Shown piece by piece: positions 1 to 54,180 of a DNA stretch of 64,000 nucleotides. The translations under genes and the position numbers were made by a program. Position 1 is the first letter of the stretch. Each line of letters starts with the position of its first letter. The stretch lies in NCBI GenBank assembly GCA_021234155.1, contig JAJEKV010000040.1, positions 9,219,541 to 9,283,540 of the forward strand, read 5' to 3'. This stretch comes from Isoetes taiwanensis. Its lineage: Eukaryota > Streptophyta > Lycopodiopsida > Isoetales > Isoetaceae. The notes beneath the pieces are model-generated. The model had not been told where the DNA came from, ran no database searches, and worked only from the letters and a program-made list of their open reading frames with translations.

Positions 1-378
1 TCTCCTTGTGTCTGTCGTCCCTTCGGTTCTGCACCTGCTCTTCCTCTTCTTCGGAGTCGGAGTCCGAATCCGAGCTTGAGTCGGAGGATTCCGTACTGGG
101 GGACCTCCTTCTCTTGCTCTTCCTCTTGTCCTTCTTCATCTTCTGCGGTGGTGCTTCGGATAACTGGACACTGCCATCTGGGCCAACTCCTCCTTGTGCC
201 GCTAAGAGAGCCTTTATTTGCTCGAGGTTCGTTCTCATCTGAGACATTTCTTCCTCTGGAGTCATGGCACCAAATGCCTCATACAGGCTCCTTGCCGGGG
301 GTGGTCTGGGTGGAGTCTGTTCTTCTCTATGGTCTCGGCGTTGTCGTTCCCCTGAGCCCGGTCCTCTAGCTGCATACA
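1..378 (-). CDS. Gag-like ORF, N-terminal part, truncated by the window edge
   Basis: An open minus-strand frame runs from about 378 to base 1 and beyond. It encodes a charged protein with a Pro/Arg-rich start, a segment LYEAFGAMTPEEEMSQMR, a Lys/Arg-rich basic block (KKDKRKSKRRR) and then a long Ser/Asp/Glu tract. Coiled, charged, low-complexity N-termini of this kind are common in plant Ty3/gypsy Gag proteins, and the place after the PBS and the accessory ORFs fits, but no capsid or zinc knuckle is inside the window, so Gag is an inference. The frame has no clear ATG near 378; a 3' splice site (TGCAG) at about 379 could join it to an upstream exon, or translation may start at the ATG near position 262. 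Bases 379-546 between this frame and ORF2 are AT-rich and hold nothing else I can name. Confidence 0.5.
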
Positions 379-546
379 CAAGTAGGTCATGGCTGTACGG
401 TTAGTTTTATTTGTTCTCTTGCATTATATGTGTTTGTTGGTATAGTTGTGGAACAAAATACGTCAACAAAACATTTAAAGTGCAAAAGAAATTATGTTTA
501 TATTATATAATATCTTAATACAAAGCCTCCGGGATCAAGAGTTTAA

Positions 547-2073
547 CTATTCTTGAAATCGCCGGTAGGATGGGTTATCTTCAAGGAACTTCTTAACTTG
601 GGCCGTTCCTTCCGAGCGTCCCAAGTTCTTGAGGACGTTTGTTGATGACCCGCCCTGCAAAGCTGTCACCAATTCCTCTACCCTGCGGTCGGAGGTGTAA
701 GCTGCGGTCACTGCCAGTCTTTCCTGCCATCGGTAAGGTATGGCGAAGTCGAAGATGTCGAGTGCCATCGCTCTCTTGACTAAGATGGCATAGTCGGTGT
801 TGGCAGCTAGCCGAGCATGCCGGCCAAAGCCTGTGAGCGCGATGAGCATGAATACTCCTTCTTCGCCCCTGGGGCTGAATTTGCGGTGTATTACCGCTAT
901 TCTCCAGTCCAGCAGCAGGGGGAGATAGTATCACAGCGACCTGTCGTTGTGCGTCTTTGTTGATTCTTTGCCTCCTCGGCCACCAGCTCTGTATCTTCCG
1001 GCATATTCGTCGACCTCCACCTCGGTGAACTCTCTGTAATCCCTAATTGTTGATGAAGCTCGCATGAGGTCGATCTCGCCTCTTCTCTCTGTAGGTGCTG
1101 GTGTCGAAGAGCTCGGCATCAAAATGTTTGTGGTCCTGCCACGGATCCCCATCTGTTCTTGGATGGCATAGAACTCCTCTTCAGTCGGTAGTTCCCGAGC
1201 TTCCATTATCTGCCTGATGTTGCCGTAGGCTTGGATGTCAGAAGTTGACTCTCCTGTATAAGTGTCGGCTTCTCTTACTTGAAGTGGAAAGTCAGAAACT
1301 CCTCGGACGATGAAATCATCCAGCTCTTGTTGCTGCAGTTGGTGCAGCAACTCGTCGAGTCGATACTCCCTTTCCCTGCATTCGGGAAGGTTCTGGATGT
1401 CGCTGAGGAGCAGGTACTCCTCGCCGTCGATGATGATGGGGGCTAGGCTTGTGATACCTAGCCCAAGTGGTGGAGCGATCCTGAGGGTTTGCCGGCTCCG
1501 TTCGAATTCTTGTAACTCCTGCTCTGCCAGCTGCTGCTCTTGTGCTGGGTCGAGCTCGACGTAGTCCTCGTCTTCCGATTCTTCGTCTTCTGCCCTTCCT
1601 TCTTGCTCCTGTTGGTACTGCAAAAGGAGCTGGTCTGCTGCGGAGGAGGCTATGGGGTCCACATCTATGGGAGGGATAGAGGTTCCCCCCATGGAGTTTT
1701 CGGCACGGTGGGAGAGAAAAATTGCTAAGGCGGCGGTGTAGGAGAAATACTTGGTCCTGCCAGCTGTCAAGACCATGTAGTCTGGCAACCTCTGGGCCTT
1801 GTTGGTCAGGTACTTGGCAATGTTTGGAACATCACCCAAGGCTGCTTGAAGGGACTGCCTGGGAACAAAGTAGCCCGTATAAGGGGGGAGCTGCACTAAG
1901 GACGGTCCTACCCTAGCTTGGAACTCGGTCAATACTTGTCTATATGCTGGGGTTGCGTGCAGAGTGGCTTGGACATCTATTTCTTTCTGGAAGACTCGGA
2001 AAATGTCATTGACATCGGCCTCGGCAGCATGAGCACTGGCACTGTACCATCGCCTGAAGTCAGCAGTTGCCAT
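547..2073 (-). pseudogene. ORF2 of the E1 retrotransposon, unknown function, one in-frame TGA
   Basis: Starting at the ATG at 2073 (protein begins MATADFRRWYSASAHAAEAD), one frame stays open to 547 apart from a TGA at 933-931, giving about 508 codons. TGA could derive from CGA by deamination of a methylated CpG. The protein has a globular N-terminal part, a central acidic stretch (Glu/Asp/Gln rich), the segment APPLGLGITSLAPIII, then a segment with NLPECREREYRLDELL, and a C-terminal globular part after the TGA. I recognise no known domain. The central part recurs at 55.6 kb (PPLGLGIT, NLPECR and LPTEEEF are conserved), where it is joined to a Ty3-type integrase, so it belongs to the retroelement and is under some constraint. 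The ATG at 2073 is chosen because it lies about 113 bp downstream of a TATA box and the upstream frame lacks an ATG. It might be a divergent capsid or an accessory protein. Confidence 0.7.
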
Positions 2074-2195: not shown

Positions 2196-2376
2196 AGAAG
2201 GGGAAAACCCTAATTTTTGGGTGACTTGAAAAACTCTTGAGGTTGGGCAATTCTAGCCTATGTTGAGGTCCAAATGGGAGTTGGAAGACTAATTTTTGGG
2301 TTTGAGCATGACTGGATTATCTAATGAACCTATTGCAATAAACTAGAAGATATCATGGTGGAGAAAATGCTAGGAG

Positions 2377-2443
2377 GTCTCACACGTTGCGCCCAGATCA
2401 AAACCTGGAGTCTTGTTTTTGCTCCTGGCGCGACGTGTGAGAC
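2377..2443. repeat. 67-bp hairpin repeat, copy 1
   Basis: An imperfect inverted repeat: the left arm GTCTCACACGTTGCGCCCAG pairs with the right arm whose complement is GTCTCACACGTCGCGCCAG, around a loop of about 28 bases. The same 67-bp unit occurs three more times in E1, exactly 200 bp away at 2577 and as a second pair at 4311 and 4503. It lies upstream of ORF2. Confidence 0.9.
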
Positions 2444-2576
2444 ATCTGCCCTATTTTGGTCAAAACTTGTCCAATTTGGGCGATCTAAGGGTCTAATCAT
2501 GCTAAACTCATCGAGTTAGGCAGAATTGACCCCTTACTTGGTCGATTTGGAGGTGTTTTGGTCTAATTTGGATATG

Positions 2577-2643
2577 GTCTCACATGTTGCGCCCAGGTCA
2601 AAAACTGGAGTTTTGTTTTTGGTCCTGGCGCGACGTGTGAGAC
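2577..2643. repeat. 67-bp hairpin repeat, copy 2
   Basis: Same inverted repeat as copy 1, with one arm change (CACATG for CACACG). It is spaced 200 bp from copy 1, in the interval between the histone H3-like ORF and ORF2. The bases between the two copies show no strong similarity to the spacer of the other pair, so the hairpin itself seems to be the conserved unit. Confidence 0.9.
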
Positions 2644-2785
2644 ATCTCACTATTTGCTCTAGAAATGTCCTATTTTACTAAAACAAGAGCTGTTACCTAT
2701 AACTCAGCTTAATTAAGTAAGATTACACATATAATCTACTCAAGATTCTTTTGTATTAACAAAATTTTCATCATTTACAAAATTT

Positions 2786-4099
2786 CTAATGGGGATCTCC
2801 CTTAATTATACTGGCCAACTGCATATCTTTCCTCATTAACGTTACTCGCTTGGCATGCACGGTGCAGGCTGTGGAGTCTTCAAAATGCTGCACTATCTTT
2901 TGCTCGGCCGCTTCCTGCAGTGCCAACAGCATTTCGTCGGTTACCCTCATGCCGGTGTTAAAGTCCTGCATTACTTCTCTAACTAGACGGGCGAAGGGGG
3001 CACGGGGGATTAAGAAGCTGAAGCTGCGCTGGAAGTGCCTGATCTCCCTCAGTGCTCTTCTCTCGGTCTCCTTTCTGCTGGCTCTCTTCTTGGCTGGCTT
3101 CTTGGGGAGCTTGGGCTTCTCTGGTGGCGGCCTTAAGGTCTGCTGCTTTGTTGGATGTCCACCCTCGACAATCCTGACCCTGTTCTCCTGGTAGTAGGAG
3201 TTGTAAGCCTCCCACTTCTTCATGTAAGCGTTGTGCTCCCTCATCTTTCTCTCGTAGATCTTGATGGGGTCTGTCACGTAAGATTCTCGGGCAGGTCGTG
3301 GCTGTTTCTTCCTGTCCCAAGTCGGATATGGCGGGGGCTTCTGCACTTGATCCGGCTGCTCTGGGTCCTGTGCTGCCTGCTCGTCGCCTGGGGGCTTAGA
3401 AGAGCTTCCACCTGCGGTGTTGGGGTTGAAGTCTTCATCTTCAGAGTCGTCAGAGGAGGGTGGCTTGTCGGGCGGCCGTTCCGTGATGATGACCTTTGTT
3501 CTTGGGGCCTTCTTAAGTTTTCTTTGGCCCGCCTCCACGAACTTCCCTTTCTTCAGTCTCAATTCCTCGGCCTCTTTGGCCTCCTGCTCCTCCCCCTCCC
3601 TCTTCCTCTTCTTCTCTGCCCTCTTCTTTTCTCGGCGGCATTCTTTTGCTTCGTGCTTTTTGATCCATGCCGCGAGCTCTTCTTCCTCAGCCGGCTTGAG
3701 TGTCGGCTCTCTCTGTTCTTCTTGCTCCTCCGCCTCCTTCTCTCGAATTCAAGCTTCGAGTTCTTCCTCTATGGTTGGCTCGGGAGTCGGCTGCCTCTGC
3801 TCTTCGCGAGCCTTGGTTCTCTGCTCTCGCTCTGCTTCCTCGTCCTCAAGCACTTCTGTGCCTGCTTCTGAGTGCACCTCGTCTTGATCGACCTGCTGGT
3901 CTATCTCTTCGTCCTGTGCTCCTCCCTGCTGGGATCCTTCCTTCTGGTGCTCCTCTGAAGCTATCCCCTCGCTCGATGAAGACTGGCCATGCCTGTTAAA
4001 AAGGCGCTCCTGAAGCATCCGCTGTATCAGGCTCGGATCTTGGGCGCTGGCTGATCCATCAGGTCGGGGAACTCGAGCGGTCTGCTTGGTCCGGGCCAT
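2786..4099 (-). pseudogene. Histone H3-like protein with H3 tail, long insert and C-terminal H3 fold (E1), one in-frame TGA
   Basis: The ATG at 4099 begins a protein whose first nine residues, MARTKQTAR, equal the start of canonical histone H3 (R2, K4, Q5, R8 present; K9 replaced by Val). One frame stays open to the stop at 2786-2788 except for a TGA at 3751-3749, giving 438 codons including stops, about three times the length of H3. The middle (about residues 10-345) is acidic, Ser/Gln/Glu rich and then Lys/Arg/Glu rich and coiled, unlike H3. The last 89 residues (3055-2789) are a histone H3 fold: ALREIR, RLVRE, a QDF motif, LALQEAAE, FED, HAKRVT and KDMQLA all align in order with H3, at roughly half identity by eye. 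The closest fold is therefore H3 or CENH3, not H4, H2A or H2B. It has its own TATA box and lies about 670 bp after the primer-binding site of an LTR retrotransposon. Whether it enters nucleosomes is unknown. Confidence 0.9.
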
Positions 4100-4210: not shown

Positions 4211-4310
4211 CTTGGGCAATTTTAGGTCAAAATTCAAGTTGCTCTATTTAATGTGCCAGGGCACCTATTGACTTAAAACATACACTTATTTCAGAGTTTT
4301 CTAAGTACTG

Positions 4311-4377
4311 ATCTCACACGTTGCGCCCAGGTCAAAAACTAGAGTTCTGCTTTTAGTCCTGGCGCGACGTGTGAGAC
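4311..4377. repeat. 67-bp hairpin repeat, copy 3
   Basis: Same inverted repeat as at 2377, about 100 bp upstream of the TATA box of the histone H3-like ORF. The arms CTCACACGTTGCGCCCAG and CTGGCGCGACGTGTGAGAC are preserved; only the outermost base and loop bases differ. Confidence 0.9.
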
Positions 4378-4502
4378 ATTGTACATTTTTGACTAATTTA
4401 TGTGATTGTAACATACCATTCTAGCTAAATCTTACCTTAGAACTCGATCTAGCATGTTACTTTTCTAAAATTCATCAAGTTTTAAGGTGTTTTTGGCCCA
4501 AT

Positions 4503-4569
4503 GTCTCACACGTTGCGCCCAGATCAAAAACTGGAGTTTTGTTTTTAGTCCTGGCGCGACGTGTGAGAC
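4503..4569. repeat. 67-bp hairpin repeat, copy 4
   Basis: Fourth copy, 192 bp from copy 3, lying between the primer-binding site and the histone H3-like ORF. Both arms are complete. All four copies have the same length. Confidence 0.9.
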
Positions 4570-4761
4570 CTTCTTGCTTTAGAAGGATTCGGCTCACTAT
4601 TTTTAATCTTTTTATGTTCCAATTCTCTTAACTGTTACTAGCTTAGCATTTACTACAAAAATGAGAAATTTTTTTTCCCATTTTCCGAGGTTTGAGGATC
4701 CTATCAAGTTAATACTACTGGGATCATGGTCAGTGCTTTGCTCTTGGTCTCCAAGAACATT

Positions 4762-4773
4762 GCTCTGATACCA
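4762..4773 (-). other. Primer-binding site of E1 (initiator tRNA-Met type)
   Basis: The minus strand reads TGGTATCAGAGC, the standard plant PBS complementary to initiator tRNA-Met. It starts two bases after the terminal CA of the LTR at 4775, with one G between. It fixes the direction of the element and shows that the histone H3-like ORF is the first internal gene. Confidence 0.9.
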
Positions 4774-4774
4774 C

Positions 4775-6130
4775 TGTGACGTCCCCTACTCATATACGGT
4801 GCACTCACCGTATACAAACAGGAGTTCATCCCCCATACCAGCTCCATACTGATACAGGGCCCTCCATATATCACTGCAATCTTGATGAGTTCCAGTGGGA
4901 AGAATGAAGGGGTCATTTTACCCTGTCTCCCCCAGGGCCTACCTAGCTGCGGAAGCGTAACATACATGTCAGTATACAACATCAACACCACATAGCCATC
5001 TCGAAGGATGGCTCATCACATATCTGCATAGACAATGATCAGCACATCACATGGGAAATCCTACCCAAGGCTCAGACTCGAAGGGATGACTGACGGCTTG
5101 GGCCTCCAGAGTTCATTGCAGACAGAATTCATGGCAATGGATTTGGCTTGCATGAGAACATGGCTAAGGGTTGTCCACTCCATCTGCCCCTCCTGTGCAC
5201 ACTTTGCAGAGTAGGTTGAAAAGTGTTGGGACCTGACTGTAGCCCGCCAGATGCATAGCCAAAGGGGCTATTCATGGGTTGCATCTCCCCAATTCCGATG
5301 GGGCAGGTAGGGATCACTCCCTCCAGAGATCTACATGCTGACCCAAGGTGACTAGAGGGCCACTGCCCTTATTCGACTTGAACCCAATGGAGAGTGACGC
5401 ATCACTCCACGGGTGTCGAGCCCATACCTTGCCCACACGCAGTGGCAAGCCATTAGACCTAGTCCACAGTGATCCCCGGTAGGCCTTACACACCAGAGGG
5501 ATCGTTCAAGGGTCAAAACATGAACCTCCTTATAAGCCAGTCTGGCCCCTTCACCCACAACCAGGTGTGATTCTTGTACACAGGCTGAATCTACAGTGTG
5601 CTAGAGAGGCTACTCTAGGAGCATCAACTACTAAGCTTTAGGGTCTCTACCCCCCTTCCCAATACAATGAGTTCACAGAGATACATCATCCATATACATC
5701 AGAGAAGAACTAAAGAACTAGATCTAATCTATATCATAGAGTTAGGTTCTTTAGTTAGAGTCTGGTAACTGGGAATCTAAATGGCTGCTATGGGCAATTT
5801 AATAGGCTAAACCTACTGATACAATGACTGGAGGACGGTTTATGCTATTAAATTGACTAAATACCTGATCCTTGGCTCGCTCCTCCTGCTCTGAACTCGA
5901 CCATCCTGCTGAACTGCTAGAAGATGAAGCTAGGAAGGAAAACTAAAGAGTCAAATCGCTCAGATAGAGTCTGGGAGGTGGTTTTGACCCCTGGAGCAAG
6001 CAAAACAGAGCTCTAAAACCCTATGGACGAAAATGGCAAGTTAGGGTTTCTCTTACCTAAATAGAGAAGGGGTTAGGGCTAGGGTTTCCAATTATCCCTT
6101 TAAGCATGTGGGATAATTGGATGTGCTAGG
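4775..6130 (-). repeat. 5' LTR of E1
   Basis: This non-coding block ends in CA directly before the PBS. Long parts align with the plus-strand block 7545-8227 next to the second PBS: both share CTCTAGCACACT, CCTGCCCCATCG, CTGCAAAGTG, CACAGGAGGGGC and GTACGCTTCCG-type segments in the same order. The block also holds near 5870-6080 a leader-like stretch (minus strand) with CCCTAACCCC and CTCTATTTAGG, where transcription might begin. The far edge could not be set, because the other LTR is outside the window and the terminal TG cannot be chosen by eye. Confidence 0.75.
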
Positions 6131-7544
6131 TGGCATAAAGTGTCCACATGGGAAAATGTGCACCTAGATAAATGTGCACATTGGTAAATGTGCACATTAA
6201 TAAATGCGCATACCTTGCAAGTTGCCCCCTAGGGGCTACCCACTTGGCTACGTCGGTACCGCCGTCGGTCGAGGTGGCGTGTACAACGGCGAGGCGATGC
6301 AAGATATCGTCACGGGACCATATCTTTGTGCTAGAAGCCACCGGTTGGATGTTATAAAGACATGCTGGTGTTTTCTGAAATACCCTGCATATTATATGAT
6401 TTCTGTTTATGCAAGTTTTCTGTTGATAAACAATAACTTTAGTTCTTACAAATTGCTTTAATGTTTCTCCATTGAATATTATGAGTTGTTATATGCTCAG
6501 TATCATTATCCTTTGTAGATGTGTAGACCAAAAGGGTAGTTTAACAAAAAAACCCTTGCCAGAATGGCCGAGCAGAAAGCTTCAGATGCAAAAAGGAAGA
6601 AGTTGTATGACTATCACAAACCTGTTCGTAATGATGCCGGTTGTAGTGGCAAGGCAGCCATAGGCATAATTCCGGTTGCTAGTCAGCTGGCACAAGATAA
6701 GCGACACACTTACAAGTATAAGCGACTTACAATGGAAAATCGGGGAGAAATCAGGCGATTTCATCCATCCCATTGAATGATGACAGATATGCAAAGAGGA
6801 AATAAGTGGATATGGAGCATGATGCTGATAATACCAATACTGCACCGAATAATCAGGTTTGAGATAGATATATGTATTTTATAGAAGTGGAAACATAGTC
6901 TCAAAGTAACATAGTAATGTAACTATTGTCCTTCGATATCTTTGGAGCTGGCCTCGGATCGTGGCAAAGATCTTTGTGAAAAAAGATGAATCGGGGAGCC
7001 ATAAGTGATAATAGGCTTGATTTTTGAAGGCCATATTTTTACATGAGAGATACTATAGCTTTCAGTTTAGCATGTCTAGCTAAATCCTTAACGCAGTCAA
7101 TAAAGCATATGAATATTCGTAGGCAATATACACAGGTTACTAATATCTTAAAGTTCTCATCAGAACACAGATTAAATTAAAAGGAGCTTGGCCTTGCTGT
7201 AAGTGCAACCGTTATAGATATTGTAATAACGTAATAGTTATAATATACCAGAAATCATGTAAAGTTGCAGATATGATGCACCGTGAATGAGTTAGGCTGT
7301 ATACGGTGCAGACAAATATTTTTGTGTAATGTCCACTATTAAGTACTGTGCATGCAGAAAAGAGGTGATGGAACACTATTGAACATCGAATTTTATGTAG
7401 ATCTGTGCAATGGAAATAAAGAGGAAGTACGGCAGGCGAATTTTCTTATATGATTGCTAACGAATAACTGGTTAAATCCTTAGCATGCTGTGATAATAGA
7501 ATATATTTGAATAAAACAAGATATGAAACGAGCCTTGCGTAGAT
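6131..7544. other. AT-rich spacer between E1 and E2 with one doubtful small ORF
   Basis: It begins with three short tandem copies of a segment like AAATGTGCACAT (6150-6205). At 6564-6776 (plus) is a 70-codon frame starting MAEQKASDAKRKKLYDY, basic, no known domain, preceded by an intron-like stretch ending in TTTGTAG at about 6517. No splice partner or homology is visible, so I do not call it a gene. The rest to 7544 is AT-rich with no coding signal. The true left edge of the E2 LTR may lie inside this block. Confidence 0.4.
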
Positions 7545-8228: not shown

Positions 8229-8240
8229 TGGTATCAGAAC
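8229..8240 (+). other. Primer-binding site of E2
   Basis: TGGTATCAGAAC differs at one base from the E1 site TGGTATCAGAGC. It has the same one-base spacing from the terminal CA of its LTR, which supports common descent of the two elements. Confidence 0.8.
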
Positions 8241-8616
8241 ATGATTTTGATAGACCAAATCATTGTACTGGCCATAGTCTAACTCAGTTGATGGGACTTT
8301 TTAGGTTAAAGTATCCCAATTCTGTAGTTAGCATGTGGGTTGACCCAGTTATGGGAGGACTAACTTAGTTGAGTAGGAGAGTGTTCTACAGTAGGGTGAG
8401 TAGGTTCAAATGGTGAAGCAAGGGGTTCGTATATTCCAAGCACCATAACTTTCTCCAGGTAGCTCGGATAGACGAGATTTTTGCACCAAATTGTGGGGCA
8501 TGGTTCAATTATCCTAGGCACATCATCATCCCGCATCGAAATGGCATCAAACGGGCCCAAAATCATACTCGGGTGCCCCTATACTTTGGGTGTCTTAGAA
8601 TCCAGAGAGAAACACG

Positions 8617-8893: not shown

Positions 8894-10150
8894 ATGGCTC
8901 GTACCAAAAGTACCCAAAGCTACGACAGTCTTAGCGTGCCCCAAATCTTTGCCGAGCTTGGGGAGCAACTCGCCACCGACCCTGCCAAGGTAGAGCTCTG
9001 GTCGAGCTTGTGCAACATTTCGTCGCCGGCCATAGGATTCCTTACCCATCTTCCACTTGTCTGAGCGCTTTCTGATAAAACTTAACCTTCTCCAACAACC
9101 TTACACTTTGGTCGAACAGCCTGACCAAGTGCTCATGCTAGTTAAGTTCTACCCGCCCTCGTGTGTAGAAGTCTCCGAGGAAGAAGCCATTCGGAAAGAG
9201 GTTGTTAGGATCCGGGGGCTTGCCCACGAGGATGACACCCGGGAGATGGAGAGGGGAGACCTGAAGATTAGGGGGTTCGAGTATGTTTATCTGTGTGATG
9301 GGAGAGCCATCATAGCAAGCAACCCTTTCGACCTCCTTCCCTATTAGTATGATGAGGCCACCCAAAGTTTTTCTTGGGATGAAGTTCCGTCCTACCTCAT
9401 GGTGGACCACTTGATAGCCATCCAGATGGACATGCAAGCCAAGCCGGATTGCTATCATGCAGAGTTGTTACGAAGGATTACGGCCCAACGCTTCACTGAA
9501 GTGGAAGAGCGCATGGCAGCTGCCCTTGCCGCGCAATAAGAGGCTGAGCGGGCTGAGCAACAATGGCAAGCAGAGGAGCTTGCTAAGCAGAACCAGGACC
9601 GTCAGCAACAATCCCAACCAAACCACGAGCACGACACACCACGCCCTCCTCAACAGACTGAGACTCCCACCATTAAGCGACGGCGGAAATCCACCCCCCG
9701 TAAGTCCGGGAGTGTGCATAAGGAGAAGCTCAAGGTTGTTGGGGGTATTGGGAAGGCCACCAGCTCTGCCCGCTGGCAAGACTGAGTGGATGCAGCCCGG
9801 CCTCATCCAATAACAGGGGGCAAGACCTTATCCAAGAAGCCAACGCAGACCCAGCAAGCGGCGCCACCAAAGAAACTTTAGCCTTAAGGGAAATTCACAA
9901 GTACCAGAAGACCACAGAGCTGCTGCTATGGAAGCTCCCTTCTAGCGCTTGGCCCGCGTGATAGCCCAGGAATTCAAGATTGACCTGCGGTTCCAGACTT
10001 TTGCCATACTTTGCATTGCAAGAGGCTGCCGAGGCTTACCTGATAGCCCTTTTTGCGGATGCAAACCTTTGTGCCATCCATGCCAAAAGGGTTACTATCA
10101 TGACGAAGGATTTGGTTCTCGCTCGAACTATTCGGGAAGACCATAATTAG
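8894..10150 (+). pseudogene. Histone H3-like protein with H3 tail, long insert and C-terminal H3 fold (E2), frameshifted
   Basis: The ATG at 8894 starts MARTKSTQSYDSL, again an H3-type ARTK start. The reading continues over about 419 codons through frameshifts near 9055, 9880, 9940 and 10010 and in-frame stops at 9345, 9538 and 9783. The middle holds a globular part (about 9060-9540), a Gln/Glu-rich coil, then a basic block with RRKSTPRKSG, which resembles the K9 region of the H3 tail. The end (9881-10147) is an H3 fold: [57 protein letters not shown] and TKDLVLA align with H3 in order at about 70% by eye, much closer to canonical H3 than the E1 protein. The inserts of the two proteins show no clear similarity. 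The lesions make this copy non-functional. Confidence 0.88.
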
Positions 10151-46145: not shown

Positions 46146-46461
46146 CTGTCACTTAGCTACTGAACTCAATTGAAACCAACTTACTTTCTAGCAAGAACCA
46201 CTAAGGCAAGGGTATATATAGACTCATGAATCAACCGTTGTACTATCCGTTGTACAACAGTTAACCCTTGATTTCAATTTGTAATGGTAAAGTGGTAAAG
46301 TGGACTTTTTTTTCAATGGCTAGGTACCTCTATTATTTTTTTGGAAGTGGGGATCCCGGAGGACGGAATCCACTCATGGGGATCCCGGAGGACGGGATCC
46401 ACTAGTGGGGATCCCCACTTCCGGGATCACCAGATTGCAGACAGACTTTTTTTTTTTTTTC

Positions 46462-47088
46462 TTGCCTATTAGGTACAATGGTTTTAAGGTGTTGGAATTT
46501 ATTCCCGTTCGCGATCTGGGGATCCCGGAGGATGGGATCACCAGTCGTGATCCCCACCTCCCGATCACCCGGATGGCGGGGCCGGACTTTTTTTTTTTTT
46601 GCCTATGAGGTAATATAGTTCTAACCTTTTCGAATTTATTCCCGTCCGCGATCTGGTGATCCCGGAGGTGGGGATCACCATTGGTGATCCCCACCTCCCG
46701 ATCACCGGATCGCTGGGACGGGCCTCCTTTTTTTTTGCCTATTAGGTACAATGGTTTTAAGGTGTTCGAATTTTTTCCCGTTCGCGATCTGGGGATCCCG
46801 GAGGGTGGGATCACCAGTCGTGATCCCCACCTCCGGGATCACCAGATGGCGGACGGGCTTTTTTTTTCTTTTTTTTTTTTGCCTGTGAGATACTATGGTT
46901 CAAAGCTTTTCGAATTTATTCCCGTCCGCGATCTGGTGATCCCGGAGGACGGGATCACCAATGGTGATCCCCACCTCCGGGATCACCAGATCGCGGACGG
47001 ATTTTTTTTTTTATTTTGTTGCCTATAAGGTGCAATGGTTCTAATGTTTTCGAATTTATTCCCGTCCTCTGGGATCACCACAATAATT

Positions 47089-51839: not shown

Positions 51840-54180
51840 CCCGCGACGGACCTCCAGGAACACAACCTTCCCATGTAATCAATGGTTTGATGCAGAGTGC
51901 AAGAAACACAAACGCTGGCTCCGCCAAGTCACAGACCCTGCTTTACGCCCACGTGCAGTCAGACAGTACCGCGTCCTCCTTAAAGCTAAGAAAGCCAGGT
52001 ACATTGCAGCGCATCAAAAGGAAATGTTTTATCTCCTGGAATGTCACCCTAGGAACTTCTGGCAAAGGATTCTTAGAAAGCCAGTACAGCCCACAGGGAA
52101 CATCACTCCCGAGCAGTGGAGGCAATACTTGCAACAGCTATACAACCCTCAGGGTGCACATGCAGCATTACCCCTGAAAGAAGGCCCAGTGCTGGAAATC
52201 ACATATTCGGACGTGGAACAAGGCTTATAGTGTCTTGCCAATGGGAGAGCCCCGGACCTAGATGGTATGCAGGCAGAATTGCTTAAGTGGGCAGGGCCGT
52301 CCATAATACCAGTGCCGACCGCCTTGTTCAACAAGGCATTACAGGAAGGCTTCCCGCTGTAACGGACCAATAGCAGAGTTGTTCCCATCTATAAGGCAGG
52401 TGACCCGCACTGCAAAGCCAATTACCGAACAATCATGGTCAGTTCAGTGTTTGCAAAATTGCTTCTTTGGGATTCTCGGCGGCAGTTGATTAGCCGGGCG
52501 AAGGCGCGATGGAGATTTGCGAGAATGCGTGTACAAAGCTATCTGAAAAGATGCTCGGGTCGGTTGCAGCCGACAAACCAACCATTTGATAGTAGTATAG
52601 GGGTTGGATGCCCTCTCTCCCCAACACTGTTTGGGCTTTACATTGATCAATTGGAGAGCTGGCTTGCTGATAATGGGGGCGACGGGGCTCACCTTCTCTA
52701 CCAGATTATCAAGCAGTTAATATATCTTTGATGATGTGGACCTCCTAGTTTACACACCAGCGGACATGCACGCGACATCTCGATGCCACGGACACATTTT
52801 GTCAAGCGGTCGATATCTTGCGCGTCAACTTGGCCAAGACTAAGGTGGTTTTCATATCATCTTCCACGACAACCGAGGATCCCTCCTTCGATTCTTCCGA
52901 GGGCGAGAATGTGGAAGTAGCATCCACATACAAATATTTGGGAGTGGAGTTTCCTTCTACTATGCAATCGGGACACATCCATACGGCTTGATAGTCATAT
53001 ATGCAATGCAAAACAATAGTCATAGAGCGGAGTTGTATGATTGGACCCATCAGTCACACCTGTTCAAGGTCTTAGTGGAGCCTGTCCTTTTATACGGGGT
53101 TGAAGTATGGGGCTCAGTAGTATCCCTCGCTACTTGGAATGACTTGGAACAAAAGAAAGCCTTCTTGGTACGAGCACTAGGGGTGAAACAAATCCCATAT
53201 CAAATTCTACTGCGGAGACGATTCTTGCCTCTTGAGGGCCCCTTGATCGCCACATTGTCTATTTTCAGAAGGTGGTCAATAGGGACGATGCTCGTCTCCC
53301 TAAACTAGCTTATATCATGGCAATGGGGCCACAGCGCCTCACGGCCTGCTAGAGGGAAAAGAGAGCTCAATGGATGGCTAGATGGAATGTTCAGGAGCAC
53401 AGGTGCATACATGTGCAAACAGAGGCAGATCGCCATAGCTTGAGGCAATGTCTTGACGCTTGCTTCATCAACAAGTTTTGGGATGCCAGCGCCCTTGAAC
53501 AGGTCAAGACAGCACACTACCAGCGCTACATAAATCCCACATTGGAACAAGGCCCACAATGCTACCTGCTCACCCACTTGCCCATGAAAAGACGCAGACT
53601 CATTGCCTCCATTCGCACAGGGGCACATCATCTTCGAATTGAGACAGGTAGATGGATTGGTGAGCCACGTCAGGACAGGCTCTGTCAATGCTGCCAAATG
53701 GGAGTCATTGAGGATGAATCTCATACCCTTCAAAGTTGCCCAGCATATGATCAAATCCGGACGCACTATCCTGAGTTGGTCAGGTCTGGCCAGCCGCTAC
53801 ATGTGACATTGAGCACGACATCCATACGGGTGCTAGGATCATACCTTCAGGAGGTCATGGACATGCGAGATCAGCTATGTCCTCGGGCACGCGCTTGACA
53901 TGTACATATACATTTATTTCATGATGATGTATACTTGTACAGTTTGACAGCATTCTTATGACTGCCACGATCTTTCCCTTGAAAACCCTTCGGGGCGAGG
54001 GTTTTTTAACCCGGACAGTAATAAGTTTGTTGCGCTCCTTCTGGGTCCCATAGGCCGATTGGTCTCAGTGGACGATAAAAAACTATTCTTATTCTTATTC
54101 TTATTCTTATTCTTATTCTTATTCTTATTCTTATTCTTATTCTTATTCTTATTCTTATTCTTATTCTTATTCTTATTCTT
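51840..54180 (+). mobile_element. Non-LTR retrotransposon (LINE), 5'-truncated, with (ATTCTT)n tail
   Basis: Broken frames encode the thumb-to-RT part of a plant LINE ORF2: CNQWFDAECKKHKRW and FWQRILRKP (51870-52080), then GRAPDLDGMQAELLKWAG, PIYKAGDPHCKANYR and GCPLSPTLFGLYIDQLE (52230-52660), the RT core. The Tyr-Xaa-Asp-Asp catalytic box expected near 52730 is only FDDVDLL-like. The C-terminus has RTGAHHLRIETGRW and a Cys2-His-Cys box CQCC...EDESHTL..C (53680-53745). Many stops and shifts make it dead. Its 3' end matches the LINE tail at 11.1 kb but ends in a hexanucleotide repeat at 54083-54180. Confidence 0.9.
54083..54180 (+). repeat. (ATTCTT)n tail of the LINE
   Basis: About 16 copies of ATTCTT directly follow the conserved LINE 3' end. 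A tail of simple repeats, not poly(A), is a clade trait shared with the (TTCTA)n tail of the related copy at 11293. Confidence 0.95.

Follow-up and report, generated by a model that had tools for sequence, protein, structure and literature searches.

Histone H3-like open reading frames recur in Ty3/gypsy LTR retrotransposons of Isoetes taiwanensis

Introduction

Can an LTR retrotransposon possess a histone gene of its own and, if so, what might such a gene do? The question is raised by a stretch of 64,000 nucleotides of the Isoetes taiwanensis genome (hereafter the window), in which a preliminary description, made from the letters alone, had noticed an ORF within an LTR element that starts with the first residues of histone H3 and ends in an H3-like stretch.

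Results and discussion

ORF1 encodes the tip of the H3 tail and an H3 fold

Translation of the minus strand yielded both the MARTKQTAR start and the C-terminal H3-like stretch that had been described (Table 1). The frame, ORF1, comprises 438 codons counting stops and is interrupted once, by an in-frame TGA at codon 117 (3749-3751). Its last 89 residues form the H3 domain, and the roughly 300 residues N-terminal to the fold include a strongly charged linker with basic clusters. When the frame was compared with histone families by HMM, as had been proposed, the Pfam Histone family was matched at the C-terminus (E = 2.5e-27). A search of the PDB gave H3.3 as the best hit (E = 1.2e-25), with 175 distinct sequences at E ≤ 0.001, and in TBLASTN the segment 3055-2795 aligned to H3 residues 47-133 (55% identity). 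Judged by these matches, the C-terminus of ORF1 is an H3-type histone domain. A single-sequence AlphaFold prediction of the core gave four helices in a poor model (mean pLDDT 63). The nine-residue tail by itself is not significant (E = 0.75 in the 64 kb search); it counts as evidence because it is kept in other copies despite synonymous codon change. The original claim of an LTR retrotransposon with an ORF for the tip of the H3 tail and for the H3 fold holds.

Table 1. Location of features of element A and of the second H3-bearing element. Positions are those of the window; L005 denotes adjoining DNA.
Feature	Position	Strand	Basis and remarks
ORF1: H3 tail tip, charged linker, H3 histone fold	2786..4099	-	translation, Pfam, PDB, TBLASTN
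MARTKQTAR, identical to the start of histone H3	4073..4099	-	translation, TBLASTN, copy comparison
H3 core (H3 residues 47-133)	2795..3055	-	PDB, Pfam, TBLASTN
5' LTR of element A	4775..6336	-	BLAST edges taken as ends; outer 5' terminus seems truncated
3' LTR of element A	L005 2133-3696		BLAST
PBS TGGTATCAGAGCA, just behind the LTR end	4761..4773	-	read from sequence
Hairpin repeat, leader before ORF1	4502..4573	-	
Hairpin repeat, leader before ORF1	4310..4381	-	fold -36.6 kcal/mol, z -8
Hairpin repeat between ORF1 and ORF2	2576..2647	-	
Hairpin repeat between ORF1 and ORF2	2376..2447	-	
ORF2	931..2073	-	no family matched in Pfam; one B and one C element have a related ORF in this position
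ORF2-to-gag region	1..930	-	gag, protease, RT, RNase H, integrase and chromodomain lie beyond the window, L005 8962 down to 4634
PBS-like site, second element (lineage B)	8229..8241	+	read from sequence
Broken lineage-B ORF1: MARTKSTQ start, lineage-B N-terminal domain, H3 fold	8894..10144	+	TBLASTN; start read from sequence

Architecture of element A

Element A, a Ty3/gypsy element with a chromodomain, lies on the minus strand in the order LTR, PBS, H3 ORF, ORF2, gag, pol, LTR. Its two LTRs are 96.6% identical over 1570 columns, and its PBS presumably matches the initiator methionine tRNA. ORF1 had been placed right behind the PBS and before gag; the first part of this placement is correct, and the second has to be amended in that ORF2 intervenes. 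Pfam matches were obtained for gag, protease, RT, RNase H and the integrase zinc domain, some of those for gag and protease falling below the Pfam cut-off. At the C-terminus of the integrase a chromodomain (PF00385) was matched in lineage A (E = 5.7e-10) and in lineage B (E = 3.2e-8; lineages are described below). By eye, and relative to an HP1 sequence, the A chromodomain is without two of the three cage residues, and a direct link of the integrase to H3K9 methyl marks is therefore not supported. Group II chromodomains are likewise without these residues, according to the available part of PMC3350952.

Four 72-nt repeats are arranged as one pair ahead of ORF1 and one pair ahead of ORF2, and the one that was folded gave a strong hairpin. 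Genome-wide, the exact 19-base hairpin arm occurs 2349 times, and its reversed control 0 times. The hairpin was matched in 20/20 A loci and in none of the B-E loci compared, and no inverted repeats were found in the part of the B and C leaders that was searched. These hairpins may serve translation, packaging or dimerisation.

A 1 kb stretch flanks element A on both sides (window 6512-7532 and L005 731-1744, 96.5% identical) and seems to be part of a lineage-B LTR. Element A may therefore sit within or between older B copies.

ORF1 recurs in many copies and in five lineages

The genome (1.66 Gb, 1110 contigs) was searched with the H3 core of the window, which gave 9169 rough first-look candidates; the best 150 were scored and all 150 matched. 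Arabidopsis H3.1 gave 9022 candidates, and among the best 150, which were scored, 15 showed 96-98% identity, followed by matches at 71-86%. The former are taken as host genes. A query with H4 returned 69 candidates and 43 matches, and by this comparison of H3 with H4 a general histone expansion in the genome is not supported.

The preliminary description had considered that the frame might be absent from other copies of the family, or be a single host H3 gene insertion. The first is not the case, as many copies carry ORF1; the second is ruled out by its recurrence at the same place in many copies. Moreover, a set of 16 copies was assembled without choosing by H3, from 100 listed of the 2349 places of the hairpin arm, using arm pairs 1.5 to 2.1 kb apart. 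All 16 of these copies, fetched by a non-coding sequence, carry ORF1, 14 of them with stops.

Forty further copies, most picked for long open frames, were read and sorted into lineage A and lineages B-E. The Pfam Histone match was found in A (E = 2.5e-27), B (3e-41), C (3e-39) and D (2e-43). Identity of the H3 core to Arabidopsis H3.1, compared for four A copies and a single copy of each other lineage, is 52-59% in A and 85-86% in B-E. A long N-terminal domain is common to B-E and different from that of A (six sequences), and no Pfam family was found for it. Of the H3 tail, lineage A has the first eight or nine residues only. The B-E frames that were read start with MAITKS, MATTKS, MSRFK, MEPVK or MEE..., and an internal K-S-G motif is present in five of the six sequences aligned.

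The same layout was found outside lineage A. On contig C1068 lies a C copy with a pair of LTRs at 91% identity, a PBS, the H3 ORF, a relative of ORF2, gag and a pol ORF of 1095 codons, with stops breaking the chromodomain. A partial B copy on contig C1034 has a PBS, the H3 ORF, ORF2, gag and broken pieces of pol, and its 3' LTR was not found within the 9.95 kb examined; for D and E, ORF1 alone was looked at. The ORF2 of A is similar to that of B (E = 8.6e-7, 23% identity) and of C (E = 5e-4), the latter two being 44% identical to each other. In the RT-integrase part A and C are 78.6% identical and the B pieces are 73-97% identical to C, whilst the pN of the H3 core is 0.356 between A and C and 0.101 between B and C. 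Since A and C are close in RT-integrase and far apart in the H3 core, the A histone either evolved unusually rapidly once the two had split or was replaced. When the A and B-E proteins were compared as profiles, the H3 core and the stretch before it aligned (probability 99.7); as this alignment reaches beyond the core, common descent of ORF1 is favoured. We regard ORF1 as a stable gene of a Ty3/gypsy chromodomain lineage, derived from a host histone H3 gene and found in the same gene order in A, C and, in part, B.

Selection on the core and on the tail tip

Median dN/dS of the core was 0.057 in A and 0.025 in B (153 pairs each), values that are biased downward because the copies were picked by high score and mostly have an open frame. 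The set comprised 18 A and 24 B-E copies and excluded L032 and L040, in which the core start motif is missing, and L001, which is the window copy itself.

In the hairpin-anchored set the tail was readable in 11 of the 16 copies and letter-perfect as MARTKQTAR in 6, and codons 2-9 gave a pN/pS of 0.07; a tail was counted only where the match reached it (11/16), which favours kept tails. The corresponding values were 0.69 for the linker and 0.39 for the core, the latter being inflated by frame breaks, and so codon positions were counted on the DNA alignment instead. By this count the ratio of second- to third-position differences was lowest in the core (0.33), followed by the tail (0.45), the stretch before the core (0.59) and the linker (0.64); upstream of the ATG, 150 columns of the same alignment differed by 0.319. 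Among 20 A copies, fetched mostly via the core, pN/pS was 0.15 for the tail, letter-perfect in 9/20, and 0.42 for the residues that follow. The in-frame non-coding stretch before the ATG gave 0.55 and not 1, and therefore 0.55 is the baseline to which the 0.15 of the tail should be compared. Position 9 of the tail is K in 10 of these copies, V in 7 and another residue in 3 (ratio 1.1); since it is free to vary, methylation of K9 is unlikely to be a selected trait of the A tail. Across copies, these patterns show that the H3 core is under purifying selection, as is the tail tip in A.

A passenger origin, in which a fragment of a host H3 gene is carried without function, has some points in its favour: the capture of gene pieces by plant LTR elements has been reported (PMC7264820), and 14 of the 16 unselected copies are broken. 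We nevertheless hold it to be very improbable, as ORF1 is present in several lineages separated by near-saturated synonymous distances, and as the excess of third-position differences, seen in a sample not chosen by H3, departs from what is expected under no selection.

Residues kept and lost in the core

Seven core residues (R72, C110, R116, V117, D123, L126 and I130) are invariant across the 18 A and the 24 B-E cores, and R83 and H113 are kept in all cores but one. We take the kept positions to include H3-H3 and chaperone contacts. In A, R63 is replaced by P and F84 by V, and R129 is present in only 2/18 cores; several of the positions that have diverged in A are, we assume, DNA contacts. 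E105 is lost in 24/24 B-E cores and kept in A. The residues before the core (PHRYRPGT), which presumably contact entry DNA, are kept or nearly so in B-E and are replaced in A.

Could the protein act inside the virus-like particle instead, its histone fold condensing RNA or cDNA or aiding import, with no entry into host nucleosomes? ORF1 is the first ORF and lies ahead of gag, its linker carries the charge and basic clusters noted above, and A has diverged at several of the presumed DNA-contact positions. All this would suit a particle protein. However, the B-E cores, at 85-86% identity to Arabidopsis H3.1, are conserved beyond what general packaging should need, and presumed H3-H3 and chaperone contacts are among the positions kept. 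We therefore consider a particle role unlikely.

At residues 87-90 the host gene reads SAVL, B and D read FAIL, C and E HAIL, and A EMLL. According to the available text of a review of viral histones (PMC9145170), these residues set the assembly pathway in animals, and single viral H3s have SAIL or TAIL here; the FAIL and HAIL of B-E are of the same xAIL type of chaperone site.

Resemblance of lineage A to CENH3

Lineage A has LIPxAPF and VTLMRKD motifs as well as a MARTK start, all of which resemble plant CENH3. In a tree of 27 rows, two of them long, A and plant CENH3 fall on the same side of a branch with support of 97/93. These likenesses could mean that the A histone came from, or turned into, a CENH3-like protein that directs the element to centromeres, a scenario that we rate as rather improbable. 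The tree does not reject a clade of A with B-E (p = 0.0545), and the alignment of A with B-E also takes in a stretch ahead of the core. Moreover, loop 1 of CENH3 is longer than that of H3, whereas loop 1 of A has the canonical H3 length, its core aligning to H3 without insertion over the same 88 positions. On contig C907 the nine top-scoring A copies lie at relative positions 0.09-0.99, with the same skew as nine B copies.

Centromere targeting by A was not favoured in a weak comparison covering three contigs, there being no A-specific block on C907, where the 9 A and the 9 B copies are both skewed to one side (KS p = 0.013 and 0.017, respectively).

The 27-row tree gave no supported clade separating B-E from host H3, and FastTree groups B-E. 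The histone may have come from a single capture or from more than one, and the likeness of A to CENH3 may reflect descent or convergence. When the host's own CENH3 gene was sought with a CENH3 query, host H3 and other H3-like frames were found among the 150 scored.

A putative nucleosomal H3 variant with an element-specific extension

The reading that we favour, with a probability of about one half, is that ORF1 encodes a nucleosomal H3 variant that would pair with host H4 and hold a long N-terminal extension on chromatin, as a stable gene of the element. The part common to all lineages and strictly kept is the H3 fold, and a common function should therefore run through pairing with H4. The protein would enter nucleosomes, B-E much as ordinary H3 does, for which they look fit by the ordinary route, and A as a more divergent and CENH3-like form. 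Entry would fix the extension of about 300 residues on chromatin, its N-terminal part, different in A and B-E, being the payload. The most likely site of action would be the DNA of the element itself or its target sites, with the outcome that copies stay accessible or that integration is guided. In A the extension would end in an authentic H3 N-terminus that readers and writers of H3K4 could use; the initiator methionine is removed from the H3 N-terminus.

More speculatively, and with slightly less than even odds, the lineage might build its own chromatin, an H3 variant with an element-specific arm marking its own DNA or targets; A would then have moved CENH3-ward, with a K4-type tail in which K9 is dispensable.

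The strong conservation of the A start, ARTKQTAR (pN/pS 0.15 in the 20 copies and 0.07 in the readable hairpin-anchored ones), next to a free position 9, would also be expected of a decoy that dampens silencing by binding H3 chaperones, writers or K4 readers, with little entry into nucleosomes. A precedent for action via an N-terminal tail is the bracovirus H4, as reported in the available part of PMC9145170. However, the B-E frames that were read have no ARTKQTAR start and yet have the most strictly kept core, so that the tail cannot be the common function; a decoy seems to us unlikely, and a nucleosomal variant remains the preferred reading.

Relation to known elements and viral histones

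Element A shares its LTRs, PBS, gag, PR-RT-RH-INT and C-terminal chromodomain with plant Ty3/gypsy chromoviruses; a histone ORF is not described for chromoviruses in the available text of PMC2864245 and PMC3350952. Host-type genes as such are not foreign to plant LTR elements. The accessible portions of two reports describe a 2-ODD domain likewise fixed in a Gypsy family of orchids (PMC9289625) and elements with additional ORFs (PMC7264820); here, the extra gene is an H3 and precedes gag. When 121 angiosperm genomes were screened, LTR elements yielded 15 extra domains, and none of the nine named in the available part of that paper is a histone (PMC9289625).

Single H3s of viruses (xenomavirus, sylvanvirus and others) have a conserved fold and some have a longer or divergent N-terminus, as far as the available text of PMC9145170 goes. 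Their carriers are DNA viruses, whereas here the carrier is an LTR element, with about 300 residues or more before the fold. The same review, in which the term 'retro' has 0 occurrences, describes the bracovirus histone H4 as an element-borne core histone with an extended tail that is incorporated into host nucleosomes. That histone is an H4 and a virulence gene of a parasitoid wasp; ours is an H3. No paper on an LTR element with a histone was among the matches listed in the open-licence PMC literature, preprints excluded. Within the literature searched, then, the element is of a known kind and carries a gene described for no LTR element.

Hosts silence transposons by means of modified histones, and an element with its own histone would act on the very substrate of this control. 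It would provide a retroelement parallel to viral histones, and the large number of natural H3 variants would reveal the positions of H3 at which change is possible. Moreover, one could test with it whether the evolution of H3 variants, including CENH3, is influenced by genomic parasites.

A second H3-bearing element and other observations

The window contains a second, broken ORF1, of lineage B, on the opposite strand (Table 1). It lies some 4.8 kb away from ORF1 of element A and was matched by TBLASTN with the lineage-B protein of locus L010 (E = 1.5e-75) and with H3 (E = 4e-26). When the window was queried with the pol, gag and chromodomain of A, no match was obtained. Two further stretches, at 46377-47067 and 54084-54180, are tandem repeats with units of about 137 bases and six bases, respectively, as estimated from BLAST offsets.

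Outside the window, an ORF of 569 codons that by eye resembles a MULE-type transposase lies beside a B element (L051 759-2468, plus strand). Lastly, contig C840 (L049) is AT-rich and has an open rbcL together with atpB-like and accD-like frames; it differs from the rbcL copy on contig C1052 (L048) and may be plastid DNA that entered the assembly from a different organism.
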